Part shown: piece by piece, positions 14,649 through 26,650 of the stretch
Numbering within the stretch: the stretch's first letter is position 1
Layout: every line of letters begins with the position of its first letter
Origin: Pycnococcus provasolii
Taxonomy: Eukaryota; Chlorophyta; Pseudoscourfieldiophyceae; Pseudoscourfieldiales; Pycnococcaceae
Reading direction: 5' to 3'
NCBI GenBank assembly: GCA_938743325.2
Contig: OW568863.1
Span: forward strand, 372,001-436,000
Length of the DNA: 64,000 bases
Program-made: the position numbers and the translations under genes
Notes under the pieces: model-generated
What the model saw: only the letters and a program-made list of their open reading frames with translations
Told to the model about the DNA's origin: nothing
Databases searched by the model: none

Positions 14649-14650
14649 TA

Positions 14651-14860
14651 GTTCTATCCCGAGAAAAACTCTGGAATACACAAGGTTTGCACAGGTGAAC
14701 GGCGGCCTTAACGACGTCAGTTCGGTGTTCTGAGACTTGCAAATGAAAGCCCTAACTAAACTACACATGCAACTCTTTTTCGAATTCACCAACGAACACC
14801 CACCCGGTCCACAGGCATCCCCCATGACGTTCACAATTTTCACCCATTTTTTTCAAATCA
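14651..14860 (+). repeat. TE-A left terminal inverted repeat (210 bp)
   Basis: It starts GTTCTATCCCGAGAAAAACT and ends CACCCATTTTTTTCAAATCA. Its last base is the A of the transposase ATG. Confidence 0.9.
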
Positions 14861-16656
14861 TGCCCTTCGTCAAGGGGGATGCGAACAATCCATCTGTGGT
14901 GCGGCAGAGCGCCAAGAAGCGCCAACGTGAGGATAGACTCAAGCAATACGCCCAGCGTAATGCCAAGAAGCGCAAAGAAGTTGCTGAGCGCCGCGCGTTG
15001 CCAACATCACCCCCAGTAATGGACCGCAAGGGCGTCACGAACCTTAACGACCGTCACATAAAGCAGATGAACGAGATGTTGAAGCGCCATCAAGAGCTCG
15101 ACCAGTGGGACCTTGCCATCGCGTTTGGCATCGGTCAGGCCACGGTCTCTAGGCGCCTTAACGGCGATAGCAGGTTGACGGGAGGTCACGTCGGCCGACC
15201 GTACGGCTTGACCCCGGCCCACGTGGAAATAATCTGTGACGCGAAACGCGTGGACCCTCGGTCAAGGCACAAGGACTTGTCGAAACGCCTCCGGCGTATG
15301 GGTGTTCCACTAGGACGGGGATGGCGCGGCACACAGCTCATCGGCCGCGTACTCCGCGAACATGGGTTCACGATTCGAGGGACGAACCGGTACTGCTATT
15401 TCGAGAAACGACTTTGGTACACACACATGGGATGGAGGGATGGCATGCTGTACATGCTCGGTTGGCATCCAAAGCAAAAAAGGAGATTGGCCTTTCGCAT
15501 CGAGTACAAGCACTTGTATTACACGGACCAGACGCCATTATACTACGGCTTGGCGGCAGACGTCGTCTACAACGATAGGGAGACGTTCATGGAGGAGGCG
15601 CATAAGAAGGGTGCGGGATACCTCAACTTACACGCGACGATTGGATGCCGTGGGTGTGTGAAAGTGGCAGTGTTCCCGTCGTCGACGACGGACGCCGAAG
15701 TCGTGGCGTACACGACAGGCACCCAAGCCGTCACGCACCGCCATATCGGCGGCGGCCCGCTCGTGGATCGCTTACCGGCTGGAACCGTGCACTTGTGGGA
15801 CCGACTTGGACGCTCAGGTAGAGCTTGGAACCCAAAGAAGATGCATTACAATCCGCAAGTGCGCGCGGCGTTTCTGGAACGCGGCATCGGCGTCGACCTA
15901 CTACCTGCCAAGGGAGCCGAGTTCAATCCGATTGAACTATTCAACGGATGGATGCAACGATATTTGCTCCGTTGGACGCCACGAGGGCGGCCGAAAGACG
16001 CGTACGGGCAGGTTATCCACGGCGTGCGCACGCGCGAAGAGGCACTCGTCGCGCTCGACCAAGCCCTCCACGAGCTTCAATCGCGCCCGAAGAAGACTGC
16101 GCGGTTATTCCGCCATTGGTATCACCGACGAGTCTGCGGATCCGACGCGTTACGACGGTGGCTCTCTTCACCGGTGGGTGAGAAAATGCTGAAGACACGC
16201 CAACGACTTGGTGAGTCCGCGCCGATGCCAAACATCCTTCAGCGCGCGTTTTCCCGCGTGCTGTACAACGTGCATGCTCCGCCACCACCAGCACCGAGCG
16301 ACGTTGCCGGAACGACCACCACTCAGCTTCAACCGCCGCCGCCGCCGCCAAGCAGTGTGCCGCCAAGCAGTGTGCCAAGCAGTGTGCCGCCAAGCAGTGT
16401 GCCACCACCTCCGCCGCCGCCTCAGCCTCAGCCGCCGCCGCCTCCTCCGCCGCCTCCTCCGCCGCCTCCTCCGCCGCCGTCATCAGCGCCGCATGATGCG
16501 CGCTTGAGTGCGGAAGAACGCGAGGCGCTTATGACGCTGACGCCGGACGTAAGCGACGACGAGGCTGAAGAAGGTGCGGCTGCTATGCTCGCGTTTCTGG
16601 ACGAGTCATATGACACCGAAGAAAACGATTTCTTCATTGGTGATGACGACGAGTGA
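14860..16656 (+). CDS. TE-A transposase, Tc1/mariner (IS630)-like DDE family
   Basis: A 598-residue protein from the ATG at 14860. A basic N-terminus is followed by helix-turn-helix-like segments (DLAIAFGIGQATVSRRL, then RHKDLSKRLRRMG). The DDE core shows LYYTDQTPLYYG (first Asp), VHLWDRLGRSG (second Asp) and LLPAKGAEFNPIELFNGW. The last matches the family's SPDLNPIENLW motif with the final Glu. Between the second Asp and that Glu I count 44 residues, longer than the usual 34-41. The C-terminal tail has poly-Pro and VPPSS repeats and an acidic end. The stop TGA at 16654-16656 is the first three bases of the right inverted repeat, so the gene fills the whole space between the repeats. An in-frame ATG at 14743 inside the repeat could extend the N-terminus. 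Confidence 0.88.
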   Translation: MPFVKGDANNPSVVRQSAKKRQREDRLKQYAQRNAKKRKEVAERRALPTSPPVMDRKGVTNLNDRHIKQMNEMLKRHQELDQWDLAIAFGIGQATVSRRLNGDSRLTGGHVGRPYGLTPAHVEIICDAKRVDPRSRHKDLSKRLRRMGVPLGRGWRGTQLIGRVLREHGFTIRGTNRYCYFEKRLWYTHMGWRDGMLYMLGWHPKQKRRLAFRIEYKHLYYTDQTPLYYGLAADVVYNDRETFMEEAHKKGAGYLNLHATIGCRGCVKVAVFPSSTTDAEVVAYTTGTQAVTHRHIGGGPLVDRLPAGTVHLWDRLGRSGRAWNPKKMHYNPQVRAAFLERGIGVDLLPAKGAEFNPIELFNGWMQRYLLRWTPRGRPKDAYGQVIHGVRTREEALVALDQALHELQSRPKKTARLFRHWYHRRVCGSDALRRWLSSPVGEKMLKTRQRLGESAPMPNILQRAFSRVLYNVHAPPPPAPSDVAGTTTTQLQPPPPPPSSVPPSSVPSSVPPSSVPPPPPPPQPQPPPPPPPPPPPPPPPPSSAPHDARLSAEEREALMTLTPDVSDDEAEEGAAAMLAFLDESYDTEENDFFIGDDDE

Positions 16657-16753
16657 TTTGAAAAAAATGGGTGAAAATTGTGAACGTCATGGGGGATGCC
16701 TGTGGACCGGGTGGGTGTTCGTTGGTGAATTCGAAAAAGAGTTGCATGTGTAG
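16654..16753 (-). repeat. TE-A right inverted repeat, inner 100 bp
   Basis: This is the inner part of the right repeat. It ends at the duplication TGTGTAG (16747-16753) made by TE-C; the remaining 110 bp lie at 26539-26648. Confidence 0.9.
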
Positions 16754-16935
16754 CAAGGGCATATTAACGTATGGGCCGGTCACTCCTACCAAGGGTTGAA
16801 GCAAGGGGTTATTACAATGGGGTAGCGACTCCGGGGCATCCTGAAAACTGAACTGTCCGGTAGGGGTTAGCCGTGCTCGAGCGAGTTTAGGGGATAGAGA
16901 AACCCAAAGCCAAAAAAGCAAAAAAAAATAACAAC

Positions 16936-19377
16936 ATGTTAACATCACGTTCAACAACATGTTCACATCACGTTCGTTCCCGTTCCCGTTCCTGTTCCGT
17001 TCCACACCAAATCTCGCCTCATATTCTCGCCACGTTGTCGTCCACGAGGTCCACGAGGTCGTCCACTCTCGCCACGATGTTGAACGACATCACAAACAAG
17101 CCGTCTCTTCACGGAAAGCCACTGACAACGAAACAGAAGAGAGTGAAGCGAGCAGTTGCAGGGGCTCAGGCGCGTTGGGGAGTGAACAAGAGCCCACGTG
17201 TAGAGGGCGTTGCATGTGCGCCGACGCCGATGCTGACGGGTGATGGAGGCGCTGCGGATGAGCCGATGCCGAGGCTGACGGGTGACGGATGCGCAGCGGA
17301 TGAGCCGACGCCGATGTTCCGTTCAACAGTCGTGTCTACTTGCTGCGGGTATACAGCTGAGTCCTTCACGACGAACACATTCAAGGCTTACGTCGCCTAC
17401 CTGATGAGGAAATTTGCAGACCAAGTCGAACAAGGTGAAGGTTCCGACACGGTCGTTCCGACGTGCGTTGGAAAGAGCGGGAGCACCGAATTACACATAG
17501 AGCAGCGTGGAGGAAAGAATGTGTATGTGGTTCGATCAGCAGATTGTACCACGTGCTCAGAATCTTCGCGGCTGTGTACGGCTTGTTCGTCGATGCGTCC
17601 GAGACGTCACGCGGAGCGGGTTAAGCAAAGCGCAGAGTGCATTGCGACGAACGCAGTGCCTTTCTCGGAGGAACGGGCGGTCCACGTCGGCGTTGGGCCT
17701 CTACGCCTCCGCGCTGTGACCACGCAACGTGATCTACTTCGTCAGAAGCTCGTTCGTGCTGAGAAGCGAAGATTCAAGGAGGGGATTCTCGTTTCTGGGA
17801 CTTCTAAGAGGAACGTGCATAAGCTATTCGATGCCGTCGATAGTGAAGCTGCTAAAGCCACGTCAACTGACCCGGTGCTACAAGCCTTGTGGCAAGCACA
17901 GACTAGCCACAGGCACAAACGCGGATCCCAGAAGAAGGGCATTAGGTATGCGCCGGAGGTATTGGCATTTGCGTTGTCATTGCTGAGTCGGACGAGCGCG
18001 AAAACCTACGACAATCTGCGCATGGCTTTTGGGTTGCCAGCACTAAGTACAGTTCGCAAGGCACGAGGGCGCGCTGTACAGGAGAAGGACGGTGTATCGT
18101 TCACAGCGTTGGCCACCTGGTCAAAGAAACGAGAGCAAAGTCCCTCGCTAACTGAAGCCTACAAGGACGGCATCCTTTCGTTCGATTCGATGAAGACGCA
18201 GGCGAAAATTCTGTATGACGCACACAACAGAAAAGTAATCGGCCTACAAGACAACGACTTGGAGGTGTCAGCTGCACTCAACGCATTGAGAAAATTGGCA
18301 GAGGAGCCATCAGCACCCCCCGTGGTGCGTCACACAGAGCATCACCTCGTGTTCTTTTGGACGTGTCTGCGGCAACAGATTTCTTCCCAATTCATCGCCG
18401 CCCGCTACAACGTAGCCAGTTTGGGAGCCGACATGATCATACGCGAGTTGCATAAGATTATTCGCGAGCTTCACAGACATGGATTTGGCGTCCGTGCCGT
18501 CGTGTCCGACGGTGCTACTGAAAATAGAGCGGCCTTTGATGCTATCTGCGAGCGTGGCGAGGACGGCGTGCTCTCCTTCAGGCATGCGTCGACCGACGAA
18601 TCTATCATCGTTTTGGCAGATATGCCACACGTGGTGAAGAGGATGAGGAATGCACTGGAGTCATCGTCATCAACACGCTCGTCTCGCAATCTTTTGCTTG
18701 ATAACCAGAAGATAAGCCTTGAGAATCTAGAATTAGCTTGGTTGCGCACTGGAGGGAAGCGCATGTCGCAACTTACATTGGGCGGTGCGCAGGGAAGGTG
18801 CAAACTAACCTAGGCGCATTTCCGACTTGACGCGTTTTCCAGGATGCGTGTTCCATTGGCAGTGCAGGTGTTCGGTCGCGGGGCTCAATGGGTCCTAGAG
18901 CAGTATGGCATCGGTGGGAGACGTGCGCAGATCGAGATGATGGAGCATGTTGACAACATGGTGGACATATGCAATGGTCGTCTTGACAAATGCGAGTTCG
19001 ACGCGTTGAGACGTTGCATGGAGTTCTTCGACCGTTGGGAGAGGCAAACTCTTGACAAGCCATGCAACGGCCTCCCTCGAGAGTTGTTCGCTGACATTCG
19101 GACCCTCTGCGCCGGACTAACGGAGTTGAAACGTAGAGTTCCAGACATCGTGTTAGCAAGGACAAGTCAAGACTGCGTCGAGAATCATTTTAATGTGCTC
19201 AGGCATAGTGCAGGTGGATCGCAGAGCATTAGCGCGCGCGAAGCAAACGTCGGAGATGGGATATCAACAGCGGTGCGTTCGACGATGCCGACGATGAATG
19301 GAAACTCGTCGAAGAGCCCGTTTCGAGTCGCAACAAATCCTTCACTGGTAGTCCAACATTTGTTTGGAAACAAGTGA
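16936..19377 (+). pseudogene. TE-B transposase, P/THAP9-like, with one in-frame TAG
   Basis: The reading frame is continuous from ATG 16936 (or ATG 17077) to 19377 except for a TAG at 18811-18813. P-type motifs are APEVLAFALSLLSRTSAKTY, ILSFDSM, VVSDGATENRAAF, LADMPHVVKRMRNALE and TSQDCVENHFNVLR. The stop falls inside the conserved KLT-x-AHF...RMRV-LA block, which aligns with KLSPECFEL...RLRVDLA in TE-C. A nonsense mutation (or readthrough) therefore explains it better than an intron. A CX2CX6CX2C cluster (CTTCSESSRLCTAC) lies in the N-terminal half; no THAP finger was recognised. The end is 12 bp from the convergent companion gene. Confidence 0.8.
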
Positions 19378-19389
19378 TTGGCTTGTAAT

Positions 19390-20836
19390 TTACACTTCCC
19401 CCTCATGTGAAGACTGTGATGACGACGACGCCATTAGGTCTTCAAATGCCTCTGTAATATCCTGTGACAATTTCGCATCGTCGACTGCGATGATCGCCTT
19501 CGCACGTTCACTGGCGTGGCGCGCGAGCACCATCAACTCTGACCGCGTAGAAGCCATTTTCTTCGATACGAACTTGCGACAAAAATCCTTCCCCCGCATC
19601 TGCGAGTATTTCGTCACAAGCTCCTTGAGCAAACTACACGGCGCCTCATTAGTGAATGCTGTCATTAATAATGTTCTCACTATAGGATCATTAATGATCG
19701 CCTGTTCGATAGCTGTGGTTAGCTCGCCTCCATAGCTGACTAATTGTTCCGTCGAAAGATTCGCCGTGTAGAACGACTCAAATCGACAAATGAGACGGAA
19801 CGCATCCTTCGTCACGCAGTGTAGTCCATCCTTCTGATGCTCGCGAGCTACTATCAGATCGATAGGAAGCTGCGAGAGCCGCGCTGTCTCTACGTCGATG
19901 ATGCCTCCACTGAGAATGCCGGAGGTATTGAGGTCGTGCCTACCGCGAGCGCTCTTTTTGCACGCGTGCAGTAACCACCCGCTGATGTAGTAGAGCAATG
20001 AATTCAGTGCTAGAACAAGCATTTCCGACGAGCCCACGGTGTCGTTCGTCTCGCTCGTGTCGCCTGCGAAGCCACCCCCGCCGTCGTCGTGTTCTCGTGG
20101 TATTATTATTCGTCGCTGAGGCGCCAACGCCTTGGTAAACGAGTCTTGAATGTGATCAAAAAAGTCCACTGCACTCTCGCGACTGATTTGCGAGTGCGCG
20201 CAAGAGTCTGCAACATATGCGATCCGCAGTTGCCAAACTGATTGCTCAAATCTGATAAGTCTCTGCGCCTCCACGATGCCGGGAATCGTCAAGTTCTCTG
20301 CCAACACGTAGGCTAGAGAGATCAAAACTGACTCCACGTCTTGACACGTCCAGATGTTGGTACCCATAGCTTCGCTCAGCAGATCCTCCGACGACGGAAC
20401 AACACTAAAGACCCAGTCGACGACGTCTTCGAAGCCAGTGTCTTCGCTCAGACGCGGGCTTTTAGTAGCAGCCTTTAGGCCTTTCTTCTTCTTGTACTCG
20501 CCCAGCTGGTACGCTGCTTGCGTGTGTGTCATGTCATGCTTGAGTAGAAGTGCCTGAAACGCTGGGTTCTTGGCCGGACACCGCGACCCTGCAGCGACAC
20601 CCACGGCAGTGAAGAAGGCAAACAGGTCGTCGATTGCATCTTGCTTGATGCGTTTCCTCTTCTCACCTACGCGAAAAGAAATTTCTCAATCCACAACAAA
20701 ATTTCACATGTTTTGAGTGTGGAGTGTTTGAGGTAACAGTGTTAGTAAGAGGTTCTTAGCATTACTTTTGTGGACTTTAGCATTATTTGTACGTACCAGC
20801 TTGTGGCGTGACATCGTCGCGCGCAGACGACGCCAT
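19390..20836 (-). CDS. TE-B companion protein (YISGW family), spliced
   Basis: Exon 1 is 20836-20797 (ATG at 20836) and exon 2 is 20666-19390. The 130-bp intron starts GTACGT and ends CGTAG, and the join preserves the frame, giving 438 residues. The centre contains LNSLLYYISGWLLHACKK. The C-terminal part (KELVTKYSQMRGKDFCRKF) and the N-terminal domain (AIDDLFAFF...LLLKHDM) are both similar to the TE-C companion. No catalytic motif is seen. YISGW resembles the YIAGYV-type segment I recall after the RNase H core in P/THAP9 transposases, which the catalytic protein of this element lacks. I infer a transposase partner subunit. Confidence 0.72.
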
Positions 20837-21584
20837 GGTCGAGAGTCTCCGTTCAAAATGTTTTTAAAGGTTGGGGTTTGGCAAGGTCTTGTTCAATTTT
20901 GAAACCCCTACCGGACAGTTCAGTTTTCATCGGGCTACAACGGGAGTCGCTACCCCATTGTAATAACCCCTTGGTTGAAGCAAGGCCAGGGAACCGGGGT
21001 TTGCCCCATCTAATAAGGGTTATCGCAAGCAAGGGGAAACGCGAGCAGTTTCCTCCTATATTTTGTCCAGTTTTTGTCACGATTGCCCACTCTGGGAGCA
21101 CAGCTTGTCCCAGTATGTACAAGGGTGTTGGTTGGATCTGCCAAGCTTGCGAGCTGGTACAGTTTGCCAAACCTCCGACTGGGTTATTAACATTCCTGCT
21201 CCCAAGGCGGCAATCTTGTTTTTCAGGATGCCCACCCTACGAGCACACCTTGCCAGAAAAACTACAAGGGCATGGCTTGTTTTTGCCAAGCTAGAGAAGG
21301 TGGTACATTTTACCTAACCTCCGACTGGGTTAGGGCTAGGGCTAGAGGTTTGGCTTGTGTATTTCCCCTTGTTGCAAGCACCAAACAGGTGCATCCAAAC
21401 TGGTTCTGCGAGGGATCCCCTGCTACTGCCACTCAGGTCCAGGTGGACGGGTTCCCTTCGCTTTTTTGTCCGTTGTCACAGTTCCAGGTTCCAGCATGGC
21501 GTTCCAGGAGACACGCACCTTGCAGGCGCGTGTCCACCTTCCCCTCTGCAAGTTCCCTTACATCAGAAGGCCATACGTCCCATC
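20837..21584. other. TE-B/TE-C boundary and TE-C subterminal region
   Basis: Contains the TE-B right end (20903-20973), its duplication, the resumed TE-C inner inverted block (to 21001), and two degenerate copies of a roughly 95-bp direct repeat near 21091-21187 and 21236-21332. No gene is supported before 21585. Confidence 0.6.
21091..21332. repeat. Degenerate ~95-bp direct repeat in TE-C
   Basis: Both copies share the order gagcaca, tacaaggg, gccaagct, ggtaca and the closing block CTAACCTCCGACTGGGTTA (first copy CAAACCTCCGACTGGGTTA). This could be a subterminal transposase-binding region. Boundaries are approximate. Confidence 0.55.
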
Positions 21585-23324
21585 ATGGCGTACTCCAATC
21601 GTCAGAAGAAGCCGGCAATGTCACCCACGGCAAGGTCAGAGTTGGAAGGTTTCTTCGCCGGCCGGAACATGCTGCACGGGCAGAGGCCCCGAGAGGGCAC
21701 TGTGCCCGAACTCGACGCCATCATGGAGAAGCACGACTTGAACGGTGATCAGGTGTCGCGTTGTCTAAGAAATTGGCGTGACGCGCGCCAGCTTGCCACA
21801 TGCCCACGCGCACAAAAGCTGATAATCGATAGAGACAAACTGAGTCGCGACCTCAAGTCAACCACTGCGTGTCTTTATCAAACGGAACGGGTTAGGAAAT
21901 ACAGAGCTTGTGGAGACAACGCGCAATGGCCTGATACTCTATACGACGAACTGGCCAAGCACATCCGTGATCGGCTAGAACAAATCTGCGATATCACGTC
22001 GGAGTGCGCTGCAACATCTCTCCGTCAGATTAGCTCGTGTGCGCTGAGGAGAAATAAAAAAGTAGCAGATACTTTATTTCCGTTTCGTGAACGCGTTGTG
22101 GCTGCACTGGCTAAGGTTAAAGTTGCTAGGAGCGTCGCGCTTTTGATGGCCGTTCAGTTGGACCAACAGCTCAACTTTGAATGGAATAAGTTAGCGTTTC
22201 AGACAGACAATGTTGTTTACGACCTAGTCCCGGACGACTCGTTGTATCAAGAACTCCGCGCAGATAGTGTTCTATATTACATATCAGGCTGGCTTGTGTC
22301 GAAAGAACTAACACGTGCTCACAAAAACAACGATGCATTTGTGAGCGTCTGGGTTGTCCACAACACGTGCGTGCATGATGACGCGAAAGCTGCTGGCCTG
22401 CCTACGGGGGCCGTCCTCCGTCGGCAGCGCAGACACAACGCACTTATCTGCGCATCGGAACAACTTTTCGCGTTTATTCGACGCATAGAAGTCGTCGTGG
22501 AGCGGGCATTCAAAAGTTCAATCCTGGTCATAAGAACAAACGGGTTAAACGAGTTACGAGACAGCATTTTGAAGTCTACAACATTTTCTGAGTATTGGTC
22601 ATCTGTGGTCAAGACTACGGTCGAGCTAGGATTAGTCGACGGGAATGTGCTATTATCGTCGCTCAGAGAGTCTGCGGTGTTAATGGAAGAGAGAATCGTT
22701 ACAGCATTTCTCAAGTGTAGAGGCAATGACCTCGCGACTCAGCTTCGCGCCTTGTATAGGCGCAAAGACCAACAAGAGGCCCTGGCTACGCGTCAAAAAT
22801 TGGCGGCAGCTTCCACAAAGAGTAAGCGCGTGAGTGACAGCGCCCGTTCCCTCGTCGCGTCGCCATCGAATCCCGATCACAGGCCTCGATCCGCAGCACA
22901 TCGCACCCCTGCGAGAACGGATGCATCGGCGGCACCTCGCACTCTTGCGACATCTGCGGAACCAAACGCATCGGCGGCACCTCGCACTCTTGCGACATCT
23001 GCGGAACCAAACGCATCGGCGGCATCTCGCACTCTTGCGACATCTGCGGAACCAAACGCATCGGCGGCACCTCGCACTCTTGCGACATCTGCGGAACCAA
23101 ACGCATCGGCGGCACCTCGCACTCTTGCGACATCTGCGGAACCAAACGCATCGGCGGCACCTCGCACTCTTGCGACATCTGCGGAACCAAACGCATCGGC
23201 GGCACCTCGCACTCTTGCGACATCTGCGGAACCAAACGCATCTGAGGAGGACGCTCTTGACGGCTTCGAGAGCACATTCGAAGACCTTCTCGACGATGTC
23301 GACGATGAGGTTGCACTTCTAGAT

Positions 23325-23361
<37 letters not shown>

Positions 23362-23384
23362 GTGACGATGACGATGACGAGTGA
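21585..23384 (+). CDS. TE-C companion protein (YISGW family) with 15-residue repeats
   Basis: A 599-residue protein from the ATG at 21585, chosen because the similarity to the TE-B companion starts just after it. The N-terminal domain is ELEGFFAG...LDAIMEKHDLN, followed later by ADSVLYYISGWLVSKEL and a helical region. A low-complexity tail has seven 15-residue copies of ASAAPRTLATSAEPN (45-bp DNA repeats, about 22921-23240), then DALDGFESTFEDLLDDVDDE and a poly-Asp end. No enzyme motif is visible. Convergent with the transposase gene, stops 39 bp apart. Likely a transposition partner protein by its conserved pairing. Confidence 0.72.
22921..23240 (+). repeat. 45-bp in-frame tandem repeats
   Basis: About seven nearly identical copies encode ASAAPRTLATSAEPN; one copy has SAASR. 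High identity suggests recent expansion. Confidence 0.85.
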
Positions 23385-23423
23385 CGAGTGAGACGGCTGA
23401 TTGCAAGGCGCGTAGCAGATGGG

Positions 23424-26192
23424 CTACAAAGGTGGCGGTGGTGGTGGCAGCGGATCGACGAGCGACACCTCGCTTCGTTCACAGTTCCCACGTCGAGATG
23501 ATTCTTGTGAAGCAACTCTAATGGCATTCGCCACGACGGCTGAAGCATCCGCTTGCATCGTCGTTGGCGCGCTTCCGCCACCTGCCGACGACCCGTACCG
23601 GCAATTATTGAAATGGTTTTCAGCCACATCTTGATTGGTGATACGCCGCAGAGATATGGTTCGCCATTCATTCTCATCCAAATGCGTCAAACACATTACC
23701 ACTGAACCTAGAATGAGGTATTGCATGTCAGTCCAACACTCCACTGTGAGAAATTCGACAGCCTTGGAGGTGTCCTTCCAGTTCTTGAACCACACGAGTA
23801 TGCCAGCCAATTCTGATATTCTTGGATCGTACGGAGAATACATCGTTCCATATCTTGAATTGCATATGTCAACAAGACGATTCACAGTCCTAGACAGTTC
23901 TACGACACCTTGGAGACAAGCACATTCTGACTTTTGCGCGACCAAATCTGAACACATGTGAGAAACTGATTTTGATAGTACTCGCATTGCCAGATCCACA
24001 CGAAGCCTTGAGCTAGGAGTTAACTCAAAGCACTCGGGACTTAACTTATTCACTCGGAGAGTTGTAACTGAGCCTCCTCCTCCGTACATCTTCCATGCAG
24101 TTTCAATCGTCTTCAAAGTGACCGGGAATCCATTGAGCTTCATAGACCACTCACTAGTATCCGCGTCTGAACGTTCCATGTTATTTCTTATTTTTTTAAC
24201 CGCGTGGGGCATGTCTCCGATAAGAACTATAGGAGAATCCCATACTGGATGCCGAATGGCGACCTTCAACTTGGCGAACTGTTGGAGCTTAAGGCGGTGG
24301 ACTTCTTCAGGTGTGATGCACTCGTCCACTGTCATGGTTGCGAGCGCCTCCATAGTGGCGCGGTTGTCCGCTGACCCGTCCATGCATACTGAAGCCACGA
24401 CAAAGTTTCGTTCTGCCAACTTTATGATGATTTCCATGATTAAAGCGTATGTCAGATGAGCCTTGATCGACCCCCAATTGACTTTCGCGACGAGGTACTG
24501 AAGCTTTTCTCGCGCGTCAATTGTAGTGCAATATACGACGAAGTGCCTACTCGCGAGCTCCGGCTGAGTGCGATCGATAGACGGCGTGTCGTTCAATGCT
24601 GACTTGCAATGTTTTGCGAACATGCGCAACACAACGTCTGGCTCCCGGATTTCGTTGGCAAGGCCTACGAAGGCACCTGTGGATGTGAACTGAAAACTGC
24701 GTCTCGTTATCATGTCGTCGCCACACAGTGCCAAACGCCGTGTATGCCCGTTCACCTGCTTGGATCGAGTCGAATTCTCGCGGCTCGTTTGCTGTCGTGC
24801 CATCTCATCCAAAACTTCGTCAAGAACGCCTGACTTGCTTGCCTTCCCTGCGACTCGCGACTTATGACGCCGCAGCGTGCTTGGTGACGGCAATCCGGGC
24901 ATCAACAACCTGACGAGGTCGTAATGCTTATCGTGCGAGAGCAAGCAGGCATACTCAAGCACCGGACGGCTGTACCGGCGAACGTTTCCGGGTACCGATG
25001 TCATCTCCATAATTTCATTCCAAATGTCCATGAAATCATGGTTGTCACTGTGCTTTTTGATGAAGACTGGGTTCGCCGCGCGAAGAACCGCGACGATATT
25101 CGCGTCGTCAGATACTTCGACTCCAGTGTCCTTTCGATGTTGTGCGATGAGCGCTCGACGGTGCTGTTGCAATAATGTTTTTCTATGAGTAGCTTGCTCG
25201 TTAAGAGCTGCTTCGGCGAGCAATGGTTCCCGTGCTATCACTTTCTTAGACGCATTACTTGGTGCACCGTTTCGCAGATGTTCTTCGCGCGAGGCGACTG
25301 CTTTCCACACCCGACTGCGATGAGCATTGCAGGCCTCACACCGCTTGGCGTTATGTTGAACAAGTCCCAGTCCGCCACACGCGTGTAAGGCTGTGACACC
25401 CGAAGCGCTTGACACGCGCATGCCAAGCGCCTCGTCGAGCACAGGCGTTTGACCACCTTCTTCGACAAAGTCTGAAATGTTCGCGCGTAAAGAATCGACA
25501 ACGACGCTTCTCCATGCTCTCCTCTTTTCAGGTTGTACATCATTCTCTGTGAACCCTGAGCACGACGACTTCCTTTTTTTGCGTTGTGCCATGGATGACA
25601 CCCGTGCTTCTTCTGGTAAGTGCGACGTTCTCGAAGCCTCAACTGCGGCCGCTTCCTTCCCTGTTAAGGCTGCCCTCGCTTTTGCGCAGGTATTTGCCAC
25701 CCTTGTACGTTTCATGCCTTTTTTTTCCTGTGCAAATTTATGAAACGGTTGAAGTACTTTGGACGAATGTAAGGGCGATAATACATCACCGGTACGAGAG
25801 TAGAGGTGGCCTGTGGCGGGTTCGCCGCGAGCGGCAGTCTGCGAGGCCATGTCGGCGTCCTTTGAAAGGCTATTTGGCAAGTTCGATGTCTCCTTTGTGC
25901 TAACGGTTGGTACTTTTTGCTGGCCTGTGGCGGGTTCGCCGCGAGCGGCAGTCTGCGAGGCCATGTCGGCGTCCTTTGAAAGGCTATTTGGCAAGTTCGA
26001 TGTCTCCTTTGTGCTAACGGTTGGTACTTTTTGCTGGCCTGTGGCGGGTTCGCCGCGAGCGGCAGTCTGCGAGGCCATGTCGGCGTCCTTTGAAAGGCTA
26101 TTTGGCAAGTTCGATGTCTCCTTTGTGCTAACAGTTGGTACTTTTTGCTGGCCTGTGGCGGGTTCGCCGCGAGCGGCAGTCTGCGAGGCCAT
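23424..26192 (-). CDS. TE-C transposase, P/THAP9-like
   Basis: 922 residues from the ATG at 26192. The first about 130 residues are three full and one partial copy of a 39-residue repeat beginning MASQTAARGEPATG, so each copy offers an in-frame Met and the true start is uncertain. The core has SRPVLEYACLLSHDKHYDLV, CGDDMITRRSF, VCMDGSADNRATM, VLIGDMPHAVKKIRNNMERS and ITNQDVAENHFNNCR, in the order of P-element/THAP9 RNase H-fold transposases. A Cys pair, RCEACNAHR, lies upstream. The protein ends shortly after the NQD..ENHF block and lacks a YIAGYV-type segment. No premature stop. Confidence 0.82.
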   Translation of the reverse strand: MASQTAARGEPATGQQKVPTVSTKETSNLPNSLSKDADMASQTAARGEPATGQQKVPTVSTKETSNLPNSLSKDADMASQTAARGEPATGQQKVPTVSTKETSNLPNSLSKDADMASQTAARGEPATGHLYSRTGDVLSPLHSSKVLQPFHKFAQEKKGMKRTRVANTCAKARAALTGKEAAAVEASRTSHLPEEARVSSMAQRKKRKSSCSGFTENDVQPEKRRAWRSVVVDSLRANISDFVEEGGQTPVLDEALGMRVSSASGVTALHACGGLGLVQHNAKRCEACNAHRSRVWKAVASREEHLRNGAPSNASKKVIAREPLLAEAALNEQATHRKTLLQQHRRALIAQHRKDTGVEVSDDANIVAVLRAANPVFIKKHSDNHDFMDIWNEIMEMTSVPGNVRRYSRPVLEYACLLSHDKHYDLVRLLMPGLPSPSTLRRHKSRVAGKASKSGVLDEVLDEMARQQTSRENSTRSKQVNGHTRRLALCGDDMITRRSFQFTSTGAFVGLANEIREPDVVLRMFAKHCKSALNDTPSIDRTQPELASRHFVVYCTTIDAREKLQYLVAKVNWGSIKAHLTYALIMEIIIKLAERNFVVASVCMDGSADNRATMEALATMTVDECITPEEVHRLKLQQFAKLKVAIRHPVWDSPIVLIGDMPHAVKKIRNNMERSDADTSEWSMKLNGFPVTLKTIETAWKMYGGGGSVTTLRVNKLSPECFELTPSSRLRVDLAMRVLSKSVSHMCSDLVAQKSECACLQGVVELSRTVNRLVDICNSRYGTMYSPYDPRISELAGILVWFKNWKDTSKAVEFLTVECWTDMQYLILGSVVMCLTHLDENEWRTISLRRITNQDVAENHFNNCRYGSSAGGGSAPTTMQADASAVVANAIRVASQESSRRGNCERSEVSLVDPLPPPPPPL
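25809..26192. repeat. 117-bp tandem repeats (3.3 copies)
   Basis: Units start near GGCCTGTGGCGGGTTCGCCG on the plus strand and are almost identical. They encode the N-terminal 39-residue repeats of the TE-C transposase. Confidence 0.88.
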
Positions 26193-26538
26193 GTCAAGGT
26201 TCTATGTGTAAGTTGTCGTGTGTGGATGAGTTTATGTTAGATCAAAAAAACAAAAACTCTATCTATAAACCCTGGCCCAAACTTTGCACGCGTGTTCAAC
26301 ACACAGGTACGGACATTTCTGATAGAACGGAATGTGATTTTCATAGGCAGATTGTTCACAACCCTGAGAAATGTAAGAGCCACGCACCTGTTGACCCGCC
26401 ATTGTCGGAGGAGAATGACGGGGCTGGCCAAACAGATTAGGGTACAAACAAAATCCGCTAACCCCGGTTCCCTGGCCTTGCTTCAACGGGGCCCAACGGG
26501 AGTGACCGGCCCATACGTTAATATGCCCTTGTGTGTAG

Positions 26539-26648
26539 TTTAGTTAGGGCTTTCATTTGCAAGTCTCAGAACACCGAACTGACGTCGTTAAGGCCGCCGT
26601 TCACCTGTGCAAACCTTGTGTATTCCAGAGTTTTTCTCGGGATAGAAC
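26539..26648 (-). repeat. TE-A right inverted repeat, outer 110 bp
   Basis: This is the exact reverse complement of 14651-14760. It is separated from its inner part by the TE-C insertion and followed by the TA duplication at 26649-26650. Confidence 0.9.
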
Positions 26649-26650
26649 TA

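Follow-up and report, generated by a model that had tools for sequence, protein, structure and literature searches.

A candidate split P-type transposase, with catalytic and CTD-like parts on two convergent genes, in nested elements of Pycnococcus provasolii

P elements are the standard textbook example of a eukaryotic transposon that works with a single protein, and the C-terminal domain (CTD) of the Drosophila protein lies between the RNase H domain and the GTP-binding domain of another subunit, contacting both transposon and target DNA. The elements described here resemble Drosophila P (PDB 6p5a and 6pe2) in their RNase H transposase with a GTP-binding insertion and in holding a CTD-like domain within the element; the 31-bp terminal inverted repeats (TIRs) of one of them, TE-B, are also as in Drosophila P (excerpt of PMC7776569). 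They differ in that the CTD-like domain is encoded by a separate, convergent gene together with an N-terminal domain of its own, in that no THAP was found, in having R for K400 and V for F443, and in target-site duplications (TSDs) of 7 rather than 8 bp. Galileo, another member of the P superfamily, shares mostly 7-bp TSDs (excerpt of PMC4168063), but its TIRs are long and internally repetitive (excerpt of PMC3573991), and the excerpts mention no companion gene. Zebrafish Pdre2/THAP9 is likewise a transposase of P type, whose domains include RNase H, GBD and CTD, but its single chain carries both THAP and CTD, and its TSD and TIR measure 8 and 13 bp, respectively (excerpt of PMC10983969).

By analogy, the plan of the present elements appears most like that of the convergent RAG1L/RAG2L pair or of the two-protein PIF/Harbinger elements. 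The convergent gene pair of MuDR is a further parallel, and the ProtoRAG transposase belongs to a different family from P. ProtoRAG similarly holds a catalytic and an accessory gene (RAG1L and RAG2L), convergent and within one TIR element, but has 5-bp TSDs and a kelch/PHD accessory protein (excerpt of PMC7204232). PIF/Harbinger elements also encode two proteins, one of them Myb-like, both of which are needed there, and they mobilise MITEs (excerpt of PMC2836001). Their transposase, unlike that described here, belongs to a different superfamily and gives a 3-bp TSD. We know of no CTD-like domain in PIF/Harbinger ORF1. Among the papers listed in searches of open-licence PMC, none was seen to report a two-gene P element.

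The window is a 64,000-nucleotide stretch of DNA, part of contig C3 in a 32.3-Mb, 46-contig genome. Chlorophyll-binding proteins have 51 matches in this genome, which points to an alga. At 14649–26650 it contains a three-level nest, TE-B in TE-C in TE-A, made up as follows.

14649–26650, strand not applicable: TE-A, the outer element and host of TE-C, with 212-bp inverted ends
16754–26531, strand not applicable: TE-C, a P-superfamily element sitting in the right TIR of TE-A
16754–16786, + strand: left TIR of TE-C, 33 bp
26499–26531, − strand: right TIR of TE-C, 33 bp
16802–20973, strand not applicable: TE-B, a P-superfamily element of 4172 bp within the left end of TE-C
16802–16832, + strand: left TIR of TE-B, 31 bp, starting CAAGGGGTTATTAC
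20943–20973, − strand: right TIR of TE-B, 31 bp

The two TIRs of TE-B are identical at 31 of 31 bases and its TSD is the 7-bp GTTGAAG, while those of TE-C are identical at 33 of 33 bases with the 7-bp TSD TGTGTAG. When TE-B and a single copy of its TSD are discounted, TE-C measures 5599 bp. The empty site of TE-B, without the insertion, is present in the copies of TE-C on contigs C31 and C42, and the TE-C join obtained by removing TE-B equals the C31 copy over all 78 bases compared. Removal of TE-C and one TSD copy likewise leaves the inverted ends of TE-A identical at 212 of 212 positions. The outermost two bases of TE-A are TA at each end, which we take as its target duplication, and it gives a weak DDE_3 match (E 0.0017, below the Pfam cut-off). 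Because TE-B lies inside TE-C, and TE-C inside a TIR of TE-A, the elements were inserted in the order A, C, B. The inverted repeats I1 and I4, considered as a possible fourth element, proved to be the 212-bp end of TE-A split by TE-C and the TIR of TE-C, respectively.

The genome itself was searched with both proteins of TE-B and TE-C and the loci were then read, the search counts being lower bounds. There are at least seven long transposase copies, in four lineages that are 28–40% identical to one another: TE-B; TE-C (C3, C31 and C42); C27/C20; and C40. The TE-C copies are 99.6–99.8% identical over their longest aligned blocks, and the C27 and C20 copies are 99.6% identical. All six insertions with both ends located (TE-B, three of TE-C, C27 and C20) have 7-bp TSDs, those outside the window being the following.

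C31 copy of TE-C: TSD ACCAAGC
C42 copy of TE-C: TSD GTTAGCG
C27 copy: TSD ATATACT
C20 copy: TSD ATCAAAG

The transposon ends are CAAGGG ends, and the combination of TIRs with 7- or 8-bp target duplications that marks the P superfamily is present; no element ends were found for C40 among the 5 of 19 inverted pairs listed. A 252-bp exact duplication (locus L041, 131–382 and 2279–2530) lies directly upstream of the C40 transposase, and a short element at L056, 3160–4172, has inverted 88-bp arms that match L041, 6821–6908, together with a 319-bp piece of the C40 transposase.

An earlier note on this DNA had described TE-B and TE-C as unlike in sequence and alike in a two-gene convergent plan, and the open reading frames confirm that plan in both elements.

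16936–19377, + strand: TE-B transposase, two ORFs split by an in-frame TAG at 18811–18813
16936–18813, + strand: TE-B transposase, first part, with HTH, N-terminal part of RNase H, and the D/D and DMPH motifs
18844–19377, + strand: TE-B transposase, second part, with QDCVENHF, ending 64 aa past the E; weak PF21789 match (E 0.066)
19390–20685 (ORF listed as 19390–20604), − strand: TE-B companion, with an N-terminal three-helix-like domain and the YISGW (CTD-like) domain
21585–23384 (ORF from 21357), + strand: TE-C companion, likely ATG (MAYSNRQ...), with the YISGW domain, 45-bp repeats and an acidic tail
23424–26192, − strand: TE-C transposase, RNase H with a GTP-binding insertion, QDVAENHF, ending 64 aa past the E

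The large protein had been called a P/THAP9-like RNase H transposase, and its P-type identity is borne out by both family and structure profiles. PF21787, the TNP-like RNase H N-domain, matches TE-B (E 4.2e-10), C27 (1.6e-7) and C40 (2.6e-6) above its cut-off; TE-C reaches E 2.5e-4 and 21.8–21.9 bits against a cut-off of 24.6, and 28 bits when scored with its neighbours in the whole-genome search, which matched six of the seven long copies, missing C40, and nowhere else. When a four-row transposase profile was compared with the PDB, the sole match at E ≤ 1 was 6p5a chain A, the Drosophila P transposase (E 2.6e-18), aligned over DmTNP 282–460. The motifs FD/DD, DGxxxNRA, DMPH and QDxxENHF occur in all four lineages, providing the P-superfamily signature of an RNase H fold with D, D, [C/D](2)H and E. 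The P-element HTH, PF12017, matches TE-B below its cut-off (E 5.4e-4). A GTP-binding insertion domain is recognisable by sequence from PF21788 and the 6p5a alignment, and GTP binding is predicted: PF21788 falls just below its cut-off in TE-C (E 4.1e-5, 24.4 bits against 24.8) and further below it in C40 (E 0.029), with no match listed for TE-B and C27. The GTP contacts of Drosophila P include K385, K400, V401, S409, F443, D444, N447 and D528 (excerpt of PMC7776569). The present transposases retain V401, D444 and N447 and have R for K400, V for F443 and either S or G for S409. K385, whose position borders a gap, is not retained by the profile consensus, and D528 lies beyond the alignment, the D of QDxxE having its spacing to the catalytic glutamate, which is E531 in Drosophila (excerpt of PMC8230255).

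Six of the seven long copies have an uninterrupted transposase frame, the exception being TE-B, where the in-frame TAG makes the copy probably defective. In the C27 copy the segment that holds the stop is open, with SKAHF where TE-B has T*AHF. An intron at 18798–18842, with GT...AG ends, was considered as an explanation and rejected; since the segment it would remove is one that the other lineages conserve, the stop is more likely to be a nonsense change. The N-terminus of the TE-C transposase is encoded by a 114-bp tandem repeat, in frame (25807–26206), and the repeat number varies between copies. Four cysteines are invariant in the N-terminal region of all four transposases (C197, C256, C268 and C271 in C27) and may perhaps form a zinc-binding domain in place of THAP. 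The C27 transposase (L039, 2081–2330) also gives a weak N-terminal Tudor match (PF21743, E 0.025, below cut-off), possibly a chromatin-targeting addition; none is listed for the other lineages.

The earlier note was also right that the transposase ends soon after the ENHF block: the distance from the E of QDxxENHF to the end of the chain is 64 residues in TE-B and TE-C, 69 in C40 and 74 in C27. The 6p5a entry is deposited as chain A (569 aa) with the CTD as a separate chain B (135 aa), and chain A ends 38 residues past E531, if it is numbered as the protein, as the profile alignment suggests. A disordered linker joins the chain A part of the Drosophila protein to its CTD (excerpt of PMC7776569), and all four transposases appear to stop at about the position of this linker. 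The in-chain CTD of the P/THAP9 architecture was not found, as neither the transposase profile (E 0.56) nor its tail (E 0.53) matched the CTD, and none of the four transposases gave a THAP zinc-finger match at E ≤ 1. Their transposase, TIRs and TSDs place the elements in the P superfamily, and the absence of THAP and of an in-chain CTD sets them apart from the P/THAP9 architecture.

The companion gene, convergent with the transposase, is present in seven of the seven long copies found in the genome, so that the survey for linkage proposed in the earlier note turned up no long copy without it. The YISGW motif and shared N-terminal domain that had been reported for TE-B and TE-C extend to all four lineages, with the motif as YY[IL]xGWL in 4/4 and with invariant YY..GWL, LP, R, L, F, R.E and RG.D positions. 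Companions of different lineages match each other (TE-B with C27/C20 at E 6.5e-15, TE-C with C40 at E 5.9e-30), which rules out chance for their similarity. The TE-B companion probably has a first exon with its ATG at 20836, and the 45-bp tandem repeats of the TE-C companion are in frame (22864–23292). No Pfam family reaches its cut-off in a scan of the companion, nor in one of its N-terminal domain in 4/4 members. The full companion profile matched no PDB chain at E ≤ 10, the 6p5a CTD chain included. The N-terminal domain profile gave four PDB matches at E ≤ 10, none significant: POU6F1 (0.053), tryptophanyl-tRNA synthetase (0.12), Pit-1 (0.62) and ADAM 33 (0.82). We take the matched regions of POU6F1 and Pit-1 to be their homeodomains, and the N-terminal domain is possibly a homeodomain-like DNA-binding domain. 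An AlphaFold model from a shallow, five-row alignment is all-helical, with a mean pLDDT of 57 and confident parts at 34–96 (three helices) and 254–398 (helical).

Central to the earlier note was the proposal that the CTD-type segment appears here as a separate gene. According to the note, a YIAGYV-type segment follows the catalytic block in the same chain of canonical proteins; the segment is present in the Drosophila CTD, the only canonical CTD compared (query identical to 6p5a chain B at 124/124 letters), and for Drosophila its place in the chain is supported by the excerpt of PMC7776569. In hhalign, the companion domain aligned with CTD residues 2–61 at E 0.0021 and a score of 26.0, and at E 0.0031 and 0.0022 with two other alignments, the hhalign probabilities being just 10–13%. 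The matched blocks pair Y[IL]xGW with YIAGY(V) at the start and continue with a GGL...F...LE.IF block. A further block, MRGKDF..KLR against KSFYFKIR, aligns in MAFFT and lies outside the hhalign match. The CTD score was reached by none of 250 and none of 350 shuffles (best 25.3), and by none of 144 and none of 232 translated open-frame segments of the same genome (best 22.6); the 144 are 148 segments less four belonging to the companions themselves, and the 232 are not all independent because their source loci partly overlap, many being frames rather than genes. A CTD with its halves swapped scored 25.6, so that it makes no difference to the score where in the chain the matched part lies; the reversed CTD scored 14.2. 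The N-part of the companion did not match the CTD (E 0.61).

Other methods gave a less clear picture. With the same profile in HMMER the CTD ranks 155th of 4784 scored sequences, nearly all of them shuffles, and in a simple profile alignment under three gap settings 7, 7 and 0 of 1000 shuffles scored at least as high as the CTD, so that membership of the CTD family is indicated by hhalign but weakly by HMMER and two of the three gap settings. The structure prediction called for in the earlier note delivered helical modules but no fold match: in a Foldseek search with the whole shallow companion model, the best of 121 matches at E ≤ 10 had an E-value of 0.88 and none reached 0.001, and 6p5a is absent from the best 50 of the 121. 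The YISGW domain is probably homologous to the P CTD, with support of modest sequence significance. Two outcomes had been named as fatal to the idea of a divided transposase, a companion unlike the P/THAP9 C-terminal region and many intact copies lacking it; neither was encountered, and the CTD likeness has support from sequence and none from fold.

Beyond the long copies, seven more loci (7.5–10 kb searched at each) hold short fragments, of the transposase in five, the companion in one and both in one, which are too short to test linkage. The relic L057, examined as a possible fused chain and rejected as one, consists of a TE-C end and, joined to it, a TE-C-like copy that has deletions and shifted frames. 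Collections of viral contigs and genome contigs yielded no confirmed relative. For transposase and companion alike, TE-B scores highest in pairwise comparison with C27, and TE-C with C40, as expected if the gene pair travelled together, although four lineages give this comparison little power.

We consider it rather probable that these are P-superfamily cut-and-paste transposons in which two convergent genes each encode one part of the transposase, a DNA-binding partner contributing the CTD in trans. A different role for the companion, as an accessory protein for end binding or nuclear targeting like PIF/Harbinger ORF1 or RAG2L, would make it necessary for transposition and yet no CTD homologue, the transposase having lost its CTD or never had one. 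The N-terminal three-helix module with its weak homeodomain-region match (E 0.053), the precedent that RAG1L/RAG2L and PIF/Harbinger set for a convergent or two-gene plan, and a CTD similarity that is modest and has no fold match are all consistent with such a role; we nevertheless regard it as unlikely, as the CTD match falls on the one domain for which it is expected, with none on three other profiles tried, and opens with Y[IL]xGW against YIAGY before the GL...F...LE.IF block.

Truncated P proteins repress transposition in Drosophila by forming mixed complexes, and the companion might similarly be a regulator or repressor, in which CTD-like interaction and DNA-binding domains without catalysis block transposition. 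Its possible DNA-binding plus CTD-like layout and the lack of a matched transposase family would suit this reading, but no lineage has a CTD on its catalytic partner, a lack that pure repression would leave unexplained, and the companion gene is kept in all long copies found, making a purely regulatory function quite improbable. Least credible is a passenger or host-derived cargo gene with no role in transposition: a protein with no Pfam family at cut-off could be such cargo, but it recurs in 4/4 lineages, its orientation never changing and its lineage pairing matching that of the transposase, and we disfavour this origin strongly.

On the preferred reading of a divided transposase, the large protein would provide the catalytic RNase H fold together with the HTH and the GTP-binding insertion, stopping within the part that forms a flexible linker in Drosophila P, and the companion would contain a homologue of the P CTD joined to an N-terminal DNA-binding domain of its own, possibly of homeodomain type. 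The companion would most likely dock in trans at the place of the CTD, between the RNase H domain and the GTP-binding domain of the partner, perhaps helping to recognise the transposon ends, and would complete the transpososome. Assembled on the CAAGGG ends, the two proteins would cut there and integrate the element with 7-bp-staggered duplications. DNA binding, the complex and the need for both proteins we infer, alongside the P-type enzyme, ends, TSDs, gene linkage and lineage pairing observed in the genome. We put forward more tentatively, and as slightly less than an even prospect, that this is an obligate two-subunit P-type transposase that arose by gene fission at the RNase H–CTD linker, the CTD now being a separate protein, supplied in trans, with an acquired homeodomain-like end-binding module, and the arrangement being old enough for four diverged lineages in one genome to have it in common.

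The 33-base TIR of TE-C has 22 matches in the genome, all exact despite three permitted mismatches (the reversed control gave 0), which comprise the three full copies, seven pairs spanning 248 bp each and two unpaired TIRs.

C2, C9, C13, C14, C28 and C31 (two): 248-bp pairs with exact TE-C TIRs
C13 and C25: unpaired TE-C TIRs

From their TIR spacing, the seven pairs look like MITEs mobilised by the TE-C proteins, and their exact TIRs suggest recent TE-C activity. If the transposase is indeed divided, elements that encode their CTD apart from the catalytic protein would reveal which interface of the P enzyme can be split, and would offer, in another superfamily, a counterpart to the convergent genes for RAG1L and RAG2L. 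Adding or withholding one protein would then separate the catalytic step from those contacts with target and transposon ends that depend on the CTD, and the MITE-like pairs may be a ready-made substrate for this.
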